64,000 nt of DNA, from NCBI RefSeq assembly GCF_002563855.1, contig NZ_PDJQ01000001.1, positions 186,001 through 250,000 of the forward strand, read 5' to 3'. The DNA comes from Tepidiforma thermophila (lineage in GTDB: Bacteria > Chloroflexota > Dehalococcoidia > Tepidiformales > Tepidiformaceae). How positions within the stretch are numbered: position 1 is the first letter of the stretch; each line of letters begins with the position of its first letter. Made by a program: the position numbers and the translations under genes. Positions 9,279-14,816 of this stretch are shown piece by piece. Under the pieces are notes generated by a model. The model searched no databases. It saw nothing but the letters and a program-made list of their open reading frames with translations, and was not told where the DNA came from.

Positions 9279-9312
9279 AAAAAAAGACCTCGAAACGAGC
9301 TACCTGCTCGCC
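9279..9312 (-). terminator. Riboswitch expression platform with T-run
   Basis: Downstream of the aptamer on the minus strand, a CGAGC...GCTCG stem and a second CTCG/CGAG stem lead into seven T residues (A-run 9279-9285 on the + strand). CGAGG and CCTCG also flank the T-run, offering an alternative pairing. This fits transcription attenuation, but the folding was not computed. Confidence 0.55.
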
Positions 9313-9313
9313 A

Positions 9314-9436
9314 GGCCTTCCAGACTGCCGACGGGGTTAGCTGACGGGCTCGGGCGGAAGGCGCCCTTGCGGCGGGTGCCGCGTTCGCCCCGGGACGTTG
9401 GGTCCCCCGCTGCGCCGTGCGGCGCACTAGGCAGGT
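9314..9436 (-). ncRNA. c-di-AMP riboswitch (ydaO-yuaA type)
   Basis: Read on the minus strand, the leader carries the conserved parts of the ydaO aptamer in order. They are a 5' P1 strand CCTGCC, a paired TGCGCC/GGCGCA arm, the purine-rich GGGGGACCCA, then GGGGCGAAC, a GCGGC/GCCGC arm, and CCTTCC. The hallmark GAGCCCGTCAGCTAACCCC follows, then GGCAG (P1 partner) and GGAAGG pairing with CCTTCC. The CCGTCAGCTAAC core and the two pseudoknot-forming arms are specific to this class. In known cases ligand binding turns the gene off, usually for cell-wall hydrolases or K+/osmolyte transport; here the gene is a tiny zinc ribbon. Confidence 0.9.
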
Positions 9437-9459
9437 GGTGCGAAACACTGAACGCGCAC

Positions 9460-9582: not shown

Positions 9583-11469
9583 TCACGCGAGGAGGCCGGC
9601 GGTGACTGCGAGGGCGAGTCCCGCCGCGGCAAGACCACAGGCCGGGGCTGCTCCGGGAGTCTCGTCGCGGGCCATGAGCGCGGCGCCGGGGCCTGCGACC
9701 AGGGCGAGGGCGGCGACGAACGCAAGGGGGTCGGCCTCGCCGGGCCCGAAGAAGCGGAGGGCCGGGCCGACGACGAGCAGCAGCACCAGCAGTCCGAACG
9801 CTGCCGCGAGCGAGGCAGCTGCTGTGCCGGGCCGCCAGGAGAAGCCGGCTGCCGCGATGACGGCGAATCCAGTGAGGAGGCCGACGGCGGCACCGGCGGA
9901 CGTGCCGGGGAGCGGGAGAAGCGCGGGCAGCGGACGGCGCGCGGCCGAGATGCGCGCGGCTTCGCCGGGGATGAGCTGCCCGGCGGCGAGGCGGGATTGC
10001 ACGAAGGTGTCCCGGGCGGAGGCGTCGGCGGCGAGGAGCAGGCGGACATCGGCCGGGCCGAAGTCGGCGTCGTCCTGGATCTCCTGGCGGAGTTCCTCGA
10101 GGGCAGCGCGGCGCTGCTGGAGGTCGTTGGCGTAGGCGTAGCGGTCGGCTGCGCCGGTGGGAAGGAGCCCGAGGTCCTGGACGATGGCTGCCGTGCGGAC
10201 GGGGTCGGCCTCGGCGGTGCGCAGGAGCTCGTGCCGGGCGTGGGGGCCGAGGGTGAGGGCGAGGACGACCGCGGCGAGGGCAGCGATGCCGGCGGCCGGG
10301 ACGGCGTTCGCCGGACGGGGCCGGGCGGGGGCCGTGGCGAGGGCCACGGCGAAGCCGGCCTCGCCGGGGCGGGCCCAGGTCTCGACGTCGATGGCGGCGG
10401 CGGGAACGGGCGGGGCGAAGGGGACGAGGGCGAGCCTGGCGACGACCGGGCCTGCGGCCGCGCCGGCTGCGAGGGCCAGGCCGTAGAGGCCGGCAGCGGC
10501 GGGAGCGAACCCTTCGCCGGAGAGTTCGCGGCCGAGCGCCCAGGCGACTGCGAGGGCGAGGGCAGCGGCCGCCCAGGGGAGGAGGCGCCCGGGGAGGCGG
10601 TCAGCGCCGGTGGCGGGGAGGATGCCGCCATGGGCGAGCACGAGGCCGGCGGCCAGGCCGGCCCCGGCCGCGCCGGCGGCCCATCCGGCTCCGGCGGGAA
10701 GGAGCACGATGGCGGCACCGACCACGGCGAGGGCTGCGATAACGGCGGCGAGCCAGGCGGCCAGGAGCGGGGCGGATGACCGGCCCGACGCTGCGAGGAC
10801 GGCGCCGGGGATGAGGGCGATGGCGGCGGCGGCGAGAACGCTGGCGGTGACGACAAGGGGGAAAGCGCTCCATGCCGCATCGCCGGAGAGGGCGGAGAGT
10901 TCGCCGGACGCGAGGAGGCCAGCCATGGCCGCCGCTGCGACTGCGCCGCCGGCCAGCGGCCCGGCGGCCGGGCGGGAGGCCCCGGGGGCGGGGCCGAGGG
11001 CCGCGACCAGGGCCGCGAGGCCGGCCCCACCGGCGAACGGCGCGATGAGCGATGCCGCGGCCCATGGGCCTTCGCCGGCGACGCGGCTGGCCAGACCGAA
11101 GAGCCCGGCGCCGGCCGCAAGCGCAAGGGCGGTGGACGCAAACGGAGTGACCACGGCGGGGCGGCCGTCATCGGCGTCGATGGGGGCGGCAAGGAGGCTG
11201 GCAAGGGCGAGCGCTGCGAAGCCGGCGAGGAAAGCTCCGCCGGCCCAGGCGGCGCGGTCGAGTTCGCCGGCGTAGCCGCCGACAAAGGCGGCAAGGGCGA
11301 TGGTCCCGGCAAGGCCGGCGGCGACGTGAGCCAGGGCGAGTTCGACCAGGGCGGGGCCCCAGGCGGCGGGACGGGGGACCGCCGGGTCGCGGGCGGCGAG
11401 TGCGCAGACGACGGCTGCTGCGACGGCGACGACGGCGGAGATGGGGATGAGGGCCTGTGCGAGGAGCAT
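9583..11469 (-). CDS. Degenerate membrane-pyrophosphatase paralogue (pseudoenzyme) with periplasmic insert
   Basis: 628 residues, almost wholly Ala/Leu/Gly/Val-rich, with about 14-16 membrane segments. By eye it aligns end to end with the HppA encoded 106 bases upstream. Examples: AGLYGLALAAGAAAGP (326-341) with AGLYGIALAAVGMLSP of HppA (414-429); GGAVAAAAMAGL then AW-SAFPL (174-204) with GSIVAAMALTT then NWDSKAFALP; and the last four helices in the same order. Every catalytic loop is gone: no DVGADLVGKVE, no DNVGDNVGD, no DPFKD. Residues about 408-518 form a charged helical insert at a loop that faces outside in pyrophosphatases. It cannot hydrolyse pyrophosphate; a structural or regulatory partner role is inferred. 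Its visible codons look less C-biased than those of hppA. The ATG at 11469 is chosen because it begins the first hydrophobic helix. Confidence 0.75.
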   Translation of the reverse strand: MLLAQALIPISAVVAVAAAVVCALAARDPAVPRPAAWGPALVELALAHVAAGLAGTIALAAFVGGYAGELDRAAWAGGAFLAGFAALALASLLAAPIDADDGRPAVVTPFASTALALAAGAGLFGLASRVAGEGPWAAASLIAPFAGGAGLAALVAALGPAPGASRPAAGPLAGGAVAAAAMAGLLASGELSALSGDAAWSAFPLVVTASVLAAAAIALIPGAVLAASGRSSAPLLAAWLAAVIAALAVVGAAIVLLPAGAGWAAGAAGAGLAAGLVLAHGGILPATGADRLPGRLLPWAAAALALAVAWALGRELSGEGFAPAAAGLYGLALAAGAAAGPVVARLALVPFAPPVPAAAIDVETWARPGEAGFAVALATAPARPRPANAVPAAGIAALAAVVLALTLGPHARHELLRTAEADPVRTAAIVQDLGLLPTGAADRYAYANDLQQRRAALEELRQEIQDDADFGPADVRLLLAADASARDTFVQSRLAAGQLIPGEAARISAARRPLPALLPLPGTSAGAAVGLLTGFAVIAAAGFSWRPGTAAASLAAAFGLLVLLLVVGPALRFFGPGEADPLAFVAALALVAGPGAALMARDETPGAAPACGLAAAGLALAVTAGLLA

Positions 11470-11574
11470 GGCGGGAGGGCTCCGCGAGGAGGGTGGCGGA
11501 GGGCGCAGCATAGAGAAGCGGCCGCCGGAGCTCAACCGGCGGCCGCCGTTCGTGCGGGCGAAGGGGAACCGGCG

Positions 11575-13641
<2,067 letters not shown>

Positions 13642-13805
13642 CTCGTCCCCCGGTAAGCATGTTTGGCCGCGCGCCCCCACCGGTGCGCGGCCGTGCCAAA
13701 ACCGGCCGAATCCTACCAATCGGCGGTGTTACGGGGAATTTCGTTTGTTCACGGGAAACGAACGGCGGTGCACACTCTGGGCGAGGACGTCGAGGGAGGT
13801 TCGTG

Positions 13806-14816
13806 ATGGCGACGCGTGAGGTTGCGGAGCTGAATGGCGACGGGATTGCGGCGGAGCTGCGGGCGGCGGTCCATGCGGTGAACGAGGCGCTTGGTTCGCC
13901 GGTGGCGTTTCGGCCGATCGACTGGTCGCTGGAGCGGCGGGAGGCATCGCCGGCAGTGCTGGAGGAGGGGATCGAGGCGGTGCGAGCGCTGGGCGCTGCG
14001 ATGAAATATCCGACGGTGACAGAGACGGTGAGTCCGAACCAGGTGCTGCGCGACCGGCTGGGACTGGCGGTGATCCACCGGCCGTGCCGGAGCTACCCGG
14101 GGGTGAGCCGGAACTACACGGGGAAGGTGGACCTGCACGTGGTGCGGATCGCGACGGGCGGAACGTACGAAGACGCGGGGATCCGGATCGGGTACTACTC
14201 GGCGGTGAGCGTGCGGGTGATGGAGCGGACGCCGGTGGAGCACGCGGCGCACTTTGCGTTCCGGCTGGCGGAGCAGCACCGCCAGGCGGTGACTTCGACG
14301 AGCAAGTACACGATTCAGCGGGCGACGGACGGGCTGTTCGAGGAGGTGGTGGCGGAGGTGGCGACGGAGTACCGGAATGTGACGCACAACCGCGAGCTGT
14401 TCGATGCGCTGCTGGCGAAGCTGATCATCAACCCGGAGCGGTACGACGTGGTGGTCTGCCCGAATGAGTACGGGGACTTCCTGAGCGACATGGTGTACGG
14501 GCTGGTGGGTTCGATCGGGCTGGGGGCGAGCGCGTCGTATGCGTTTTCGAAGAGCCACCAGCCGATCATTGGGGTGTTCGACCCGGCGGGCGGAACGGCG
14601 CCGGACATCGCGGGGAAGGGGATCGCAAATCCCTCGGGGGCGATCGAGGCGTTCGGCTACCTGCTGCAGTTCTGCGGGCACGGGGCGCTGGGGCGGCAGC
14701 TGGTGGATGCGGTGCACGACACGATTGCGGCCGGCGAGAAGACGCGCGACCTCGGGGGAACGCTGGACACGATGGCGTTCACGCAGGCGGTGATCCGGCG
14801 GGCGGTGCCGGCCTGA
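13806..14816 (+). CDS. Isocitrate/isopropylmalate dehydrogenase family protein
   Basis: 336 residues of the beta-decarboxylating dehydrogenase fold. It has the N-terminal DGIAAEL loop, VSPNQVLRDRLGLAVIHRPCRSYPGV with the substrate-binding arginines, the central STSKYTIQRATDGLF, and the catalytic block VVCPNEYGDFLSDMVYGLVGSIGLG. The cofactor end is GVFDPAGGTAPDIAGKGIANPSGAIEAFGYLLQF. The usual HGSAPDIAGK is GGTAPDIAGK here. Substrate (isocitrate, isopropylmalate, homoisocitrate or tartrate) cannot be fixed by eye. The loop VSPNQVLRDRLG favours the NAD-isocitrate type. The start ATG at 13806 has GAGGGAGG upstream. It is divergent from hppA. Confidence 0.85.
   Translation: MATREVAELNGDGIAAELRAAVHAVNEALGSPVAFRPIDWSLERREASPAVLEEGIEAVRALGAAMKYPTVTETVSPNQVLRDRLGLAVIHRPCRSYPGVSRNYTGKVDLHVVRIATGGTYEDAGIRIGYYSAVSVRVMERTPVEHAAHFAFRLAEQHRQAVTSTSKYTIQRATDGLFEEVVAEVATEYRNVTHNRELFDALLAKLIINPERYDVVVCPNEYGDFLSDMVYGLVGSIGLGASASYAFSKSHQPIIGVFDPAGGTAPDIAGKGIANPSGAIEAFGYLLQFCGHGALGRQLVDAVHDTIAAGEKTRDLGGTLDTMAFTQAVIRRAVPA

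Follow-up and report, generated by a model that had tools for sequence, protein, structure and literature searches.

A putative pseudoenzyme derived from a membrane pyrophosphatase, encoded behind an intact pump gene in Tepidiforma thermophila

In this work we asked what is encoded by a long open reading frame that directly follows the gene of an intact membrane pyrophosphatase (mPPase), HppA1, in Tepidiforma thermophila. Could a protein with none of the catalytic motifs of this family of ion pumps nevertheless be one of its members and, if so, from which mPPase does it descend and for what is it kept? mPPases are generally regarded as catalytic homodimers, and in the open-access literature that we searched neither an mPPase pseudoenzyme nor a catalytically inactive natural mPPase was found. 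The original prediction was that the frame encodes a full-length, catalytically empty paralogue of the active enzyme beside it. This central claim holds by way of intermediate sequences, profile-profile comparison, a residue map and a check of topology, and we put the probability that the protein is an mPPase-derived pseudoenzyme at roughly 93%. The frame itself, on the minus strand, is real and intact (628 codons and a stop), and it begins 105 nt downstream of HppA1, which is of the K+-dependent type. The features are listed here in coordinates of the window, the whole stretch of 64,000 nucleotides that was analysed; g1 (Tepidiforma), g13 and g8 are genera of the same bacterial family.

9583-11469, minus strand: gene of the putative mPPase-derived pseudoenzyme, 628 aa, with an ATG start and its stop codon at 9583-9585 (from relatives, alignment, residue map, hhalign and dN/dS)
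10240-11469, minus strand: pseudoenzyme residues 1-410, predicted TM1-12, with cytoplasmic loops shortened at the former catalytic-motif sites (from alignment and homology to the g13 pseudoenzymes)
9922-10239, minus strand: pseudoenzyme residues 411-516, the extracytoplasmic TM12-13 insert, common to active HppA2 (from hhalign and conservation)
9586-9921, minus strand: pseudoenzyme residues 517-628, the C-terminal part with four helices (predicted TM13-16; from position and helix count alone)
11575-13641, minus strand: HppA1, an intact mPPase of 688 aa with the K+-dependent signature GNTTAA (A at 12.46) and Glu at 6.53
11517-11547, minus strand: GC-rich hairpin of 11 bp in the gap between the two genes, with a short T-rich stretch behind it

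HppA1 matches the full mPPase profile (887 bits to PF03030 of Pfam) and scores 470-560 bits against the solved mPPases in PDB sequence comparison. The Tepidiforma pseudoenzyme itself matched nothing in Pfam, in NCBIfam or among PDB sequences. An end-to-end alignment with the adjacent HppA had been claimed, with the last four helices running in parallel; in fact the direct comparison is at chance level (BLASTP E 0.085, profile-profile probability 0.8%), and the C-terminal 112 residues match nothing significantly by themselves in hhalign, so that their assignment to the mPPase fold follows from order and helix count. The landmarks seen by eye, AW, SAFPL and AGLYGLALAA, do fall in the same columns of the multiple alignment. 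We rejected HppA1 as the parent and favoured descent from another mPPase. How, then, is the protein connected to the family? Orthologues with 56-75% identity occur in four other Tepidiforma genomes, one of them Tepidiforma flava YIM 72310, and the search for relatives gave local matches (E 1e-16 to 1e-8) to active mPPases of about 800 residues from other genera of the same family, here called HppA2. In hhalign the g1 and g13 pseudoenzymes are linked with a probability of 99.2 (E 7.5e-20), the g13 pseudoenzymes and active HppA2 with one of 100 (E 5.1e-49), and g1 and HppA2 directly with one of 98.2 (E 4.5e-14); reversed-sequence controls of the full-length comparisons gave E 0.08-0.57. When the insert between TM12 and TM13 was removed, the direct comparison of g1 with HppA2 lost its significance (E 0.012, probability 3.7), whereas those of g1 with g13 (E 1.9e-10, reversed 0.54; N-terminal part alone E 1.5e-9) and of g13 with HppA2 (E 1.6e-31) kept theirs, with reversed-target controls at E 0.12-0.89. 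The insert alone joins g1 to the HppA2 inserts (probability 98.8, E 9.7e-17). Against PF03030, two g8 copies score 193 and 162 bits and two g13 copies 45 and 28 bits, and the two g1 copies compared give no match. Full-length homology holds only through intermediates and a different mPPase, HppA2. By descent the pseudoenzyme falls in the mPPase superfamily, homology to PF03030 being reached via intermediates with a direct Pfam match absent in Tepidiforma. The paralogy that had been predicted thus stands, but the nearest active relative is HppA2, of the K+-independent type, and not the adjacent HppA1.

To see what has been lost, we mapped 29 positions of the active site, the K+ site and the gate through HppA1, with V. 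radiata numbering after PMC6882861. HppA1 has all mapped catalytic residues, and its Ala at 12.46 is the K+-dependent signature (PMC10897367). The predicted absence of motifs for pyrophosphate, Mg2+ and K+ was confirmed: in the T. thermophila frame none of the mapped catalytic and gate residues is left, each position being either missing or substituted. The whole Mg2+/PPi set (K250, D253, D257, D279, D283, D287, D507, N534, D691, K694, D723, D727, K730 and D731) is absent or substituted in five of five Tepidiforma copies, in which the ion gate residues D294, Glu at 6.53 and K742 are not kept either. Their catalytic Asp and Lys positions fall within deleted stretches or have been replaced, and catalytic loops 5-6, 11-12 and 15-16 are eroded or deleted. 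The protein thus has neither the Mg2+/PPi set nor the ion gate of a functional mPPase (EC 7.1.3.1), and we infer that it neither hydrolyses pyrophosphate nor pumps ions. The g8 copies retain the loops but have, among other changes, Asn for K250 and Ser for both D253 and D691, and a few of the residues are left, e.g. D731. Active HppA2 and HppA1 retain the mapped positions, except that 12.46 is A or K and that two genomes (G022 and G007) have an incomplete or shortened row.

Our inventory covered 38 genomes of the bacterial family and included a reading of the loci. Degenerate copies occur in 16 genomes of three genera, directly 3' of HppA1 in all 16: in five g1 genomes (628-633 aa, no PF03030 match), in eight of nine g13 genomes (complete copies of 680-684 aa, two of the eight being cut by contig ends) and in three g8 genomes (735-805 aa, 160-190 bits to PF03030). 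No degenerate copy was seen elsewhere in the 38 genomes or without HppA1. Four genomes, G017 (from the genus that has eight carriers), G018, G014 and G013, have HppA1 with nothing mPPase-like behind it, which indicates that the gene is dispensable in some lineages. The g8 (L052, L053, L054) and g13 (L058-L061, L064, L065) copies share with Tepidiforma the place 3' of HppA1, the loss of active-site residues and, where fully sequenced, the position of the insert, but are less eroded by their PF03030 bits. The fourth g8 genome, G028, has directly behind HppA1 the 5' part of an HppA2 gene with intact active-site residues (L055:1-1044, minus strand), which is cut by the end of the contig; a piece at the end of another contig (L083) is probably the missing 3' part.

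In the tree all pseudoenzymes fall within the insert-type HppA2 clade (100/100) and form one clade (95/99), in which g1 and g13 are sisters (99/98), and each genus built separately joins the same HppA2 clade. Because of long branches their position inside this clade is unsure. A topology in which the g8 copies arose separately, with the active HppA2 of g8, was not rejected (p-AU 0.08), and catalysis may have been lost once or several times. The trees and alignments show that the pseudoenzymes descend from HppA2, the K+-independent-type mPPase with an insert that other members of the bacterial family have. Intact mPPase tandems in other Chloroflexota (G072:C127, G117:C41 and G203:C2, with PF03030 scores of about 920 and then about 825 bits) make a tandem pair plausible as the ancestral state. 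A PF03030 survey of 221 Chloroflexota genomes, in which weaker matches were listed only for genomes with two matches, gave no full-length degenerate mPPase elsewhere in the phylum, and copies eroded like those of Tepidiforma would escape this profile.

Active HppA2 has all mapped active-site residues, the motif GNTTKA, which is the K+-independent signature, and an insert of about 100 residues between TM12 and TM13. Insert-bearing HppA2 enzymes (e.g. L076:428-2875, 816 aa, 788 bits to PF03030) are like the pseudoenzyme in their N-terminus, TM12-13 insert and helix plan. The pseudoenzymes, grouping inside this clade, differ from the active enzymes in lacking the active-site residues and GNTTKA, and in HppA2 the insert is the least conserved part (45.8% against 88-90% elsewhere). 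In Tepidiforma the insert (residues 411-516, about 105 in all) is helical and charged and separates predicted helices 12 and 13, and the pseudoenzyme thereby shares the feature that marks the K+-independent-type HppA2 lineage. The original prediction had described such a domain (408-518) as something extra; the segment is there, but active HppA2 relatives already have it, and the outside insert of the pseudoenzyme is inherited from HppA2. It has become the most conserved part of the Tepidiforma protein (71.1% against 61-66% elsewhere), which is not so in g13 and g8. AF2 run on the insert alone gave an all-helical model with a pLDDT of 64, and this model had no match with E below 1.5 among PDB folds. 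One HppA2 is itself unusual: that of G007 (L080:2636-4957, minus strand) is without about 44 residues between two GADL repeats, catalytic Asp residues included, a gap due either to an assembly error or to independent inactivation.

Prediction of the whole pseudoenzyme by AF2 from four sequences reached a pLDDT of 43.6, too low for fold matching or for independent support of the fold. Helix limits taken from this low-confidence model give 12 helices, the insert and 4 helices, 16 in all. The topology of mPPases is N-out, and when sides are assigned accordingly, with the same low-confidence limits, the short outer loops contain no Lys or Arg and the cytoplasmic loops ten. The pseudoenzyme is like the mPPase family (PF03030 H_PPase; TIGR01104; solved structures 4av3 of T. 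maritima, 4a01 of V. radiata and 8b37, a K+-insensitive proton pump) in its collinear motifs and the genomic place of an active mPPase. It would also be like it in its 16 predicted helices and an N-out topology, with which the positive-inside pattern and an alternating conservation of the segments are consistent. The Tepidiforma protein is unlike the family in having no catalytic or gate residue, short catalytic loops, a sequence below PF03030 detection and a conserved outer face.

Is such a gene under selection at all? All complete degenerate copies are open frames, and dN/dS (NG86) between pseudoenzyme pairs is 0.18-0.51 in Tepidiforma, 0.14-0.39 among five g13 copies and 0.24 for one g8 pair, as against 0.02-0.17 for HppA1 pairs of the same genera. 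The pseudoenzyme is under purifying selection, which is looser than that on HppA1, as its higher ratios indicate. We then compared mean pairwise conservation of outer and cytoplasmic segments, with the insert excluded and helix limits from the low-confidence AF2 model. Outer segments are the better conserved in g1 (0.714 vs 0.560; Mann-Whitney p 0.0003, circular-shift two-sided p 0.02) and g13 (0.782 vs 0.678; Mann-Whitney p 0.015, circular-shift p 0.04), and the two g8 sequences go in the same direction more weakly. In active enzymes the order is reversed, with 0.840 vs 0.911 for HppA2 and 0.703 vs 0.850 for HppA1. The preserved surface of the pseudoenzyme comprises the outer loops, the outer helix halves and the insert, the reverse of active mPPases, and on loss of the active site selection shifted to the outer surface, most clearly in Tepidiforma. 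Predicted helices 10 and 13 are among its less conserved helices. Since Tepidiformales have been described as monoderm (PMC10284905), the conserved surface would be turned towards the wall or the outside of the cell.

All five Tepidiforma genomes that have both genes also have the hairpin with its T-rich tail between them, which looks, from its sequence, terminator-like or attenuator-like. The hairpin makes the ratio of the two proteins uncertain, and their amounts are perhaps unequal. A simple operon of HppA1 and the pseudoenzyme, which we had considered, is weakened by it. In g8 (L052-L054) a GC-rich hairpin with a T-rich tail is found just 3' of HppA1, and then a conserved TGCTACACT, extended -10-like, before the pseudoenzyme.

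What might the protein do? The original prediction had offered a heterodimer partner or an extracellular sensor as ideas; the flip in conservation favours an outward-facing role, nothing in particular speaks for a conserved dimer interface, and we consider an outward-facing, non-catalytic function rather probable. An insert-bearing ancestor of the K+-independent HppA2 type had its catalytic loops eroded, with the predicted 16-helix plan and the outside TM12-13 insert staying in place; the frame has stayed open under purifying selection, its constraint now on the outer face, and the protein would sit in the membrane as an mPPase-like fold that works through that face. As the leading mechanism we propose that the protein serves the adjacent HppA1 as an accessory subunit, possibly in a heterodimer, because of the constant place behind HppA1 (16 of 16 genomes, though of three genera only) and the known coupling between mPPase subunits. 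Half-of-the-sites asymmetry is described for the homodimers, whose subunits communicate through helix 12, interface helices 10, 13 and 15 and outer loops near the exit channel, and the inhibitor ATC binds one of the subunits at outer loops 6-7, 8-9 and 12-13 (PMC10897367, PMC8657866, PMC6882861). We hold this partnership tentatively, as somewhat short of an even chance: the interface helices TM10 and TM13 are not specially conserved, a hairpin separates the genes, and in four genomes HppA1 does without the pseudoenzyme. Nearly as likely is a free-standing receptor or scaffold that faces outward; the protein would form its own homodimer and bind a ligand or envelope component by its outer face and insert without HppA1, the adjacency being a relic of an ancestral tandem. 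The same unremarkable interface helices and hairpin suit it, as do the outer face and insert as the best conserved parts, an insert turned to the exterior of a monoderm cell (PMC10284905) and the active HppA1-HppA2 tandems elsewhere in Chloroflexota, but the gene is confined to the position directly 3' of HppA1, again in three genera only. More doubtful is the fullest version of the partnership, a heteromeric mPPase in which HppA1 is joined by a dead, insert-bearing sister that senses the cell exterior and tunes pumping, half-of-the-sites asymmetry being hard-wired in two genes.

Could the gene instead be a decaying remnant, a drifting non-functional tandem copy of HppA2 whose deletion has yet to happen? 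It evolves faster than HppA1, is cleanly absent from the four genomes named above and shortens from g8 through g13 to g1. We nevertheless regard this as unlikely, given long open frames in all complete copies of three genera, dN/dS well under 1 (0.14-0.29 in the closest pairs) and a structured, sign-flipped conservation in which the insert has turned into the best conserved part. Least probable is a protein with no mPPase kinship, a membrane protein of 16 helices and rich in alanine that has gained the insert or converged on it. The insert-free comparison of Tepidiforma with HppA2, the silent C-terminal part, the empty Pfam and NCBIfam searches and the uninformative AF2 model would agree with it, but the two insert-free links through g13 speak against it, as do the same locus, N-terminal MLLAQ, helix count and insert loop. 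On the preferred reading, a pseudoenzyme kept intact by selection suggests that the mPPase family has taken on a new task, non-enzymatic and directed outward. A dead sister retained beside a live enzyme is also natural material for the half-of-the-sites question of whether one active site per dimer suffices. The graded series of active HppA2, g8, g13 and Tepidiforma in one bacterial family follows a primary ion pump as it loses its chemistry while selection on its outer face and insert becomes stronger. Transceptors and other transporter-derived receptors, such as yeast Mep2 (PMC4852598), offer an analogy only, that of a transporter fold used for sensing or regulation; their fold is unrelated, and the pseudoenzyme gives no sign of signalling.

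Lastly, the surroundings of the pair deserve mention. A search of the plasmid collection gave no match. A c-di-AMP (ydaO/yuaA) riboswitch (9311-9443, minus strand, 63.5 bits) lies downstream of the pseudoenzyme, ahead of a small ORF on that strand; a similar sequence is absent behind the pseudoenzyme in G001 and G003 and present in G004 and G002. On the other side, the divergent neighbour of HppA1 in Tepidiforma is an isocitrate/isopropylmalate dehydrogenase-like gene (13800-14816, plus strand). Such a gene adjoins HppA2 where HppA1 was not found (G007, G016 and G022; further loci L016, L075 and L070), and this neighbour common to HppA1 and HppA2 loci suggests a single ancestral locus.
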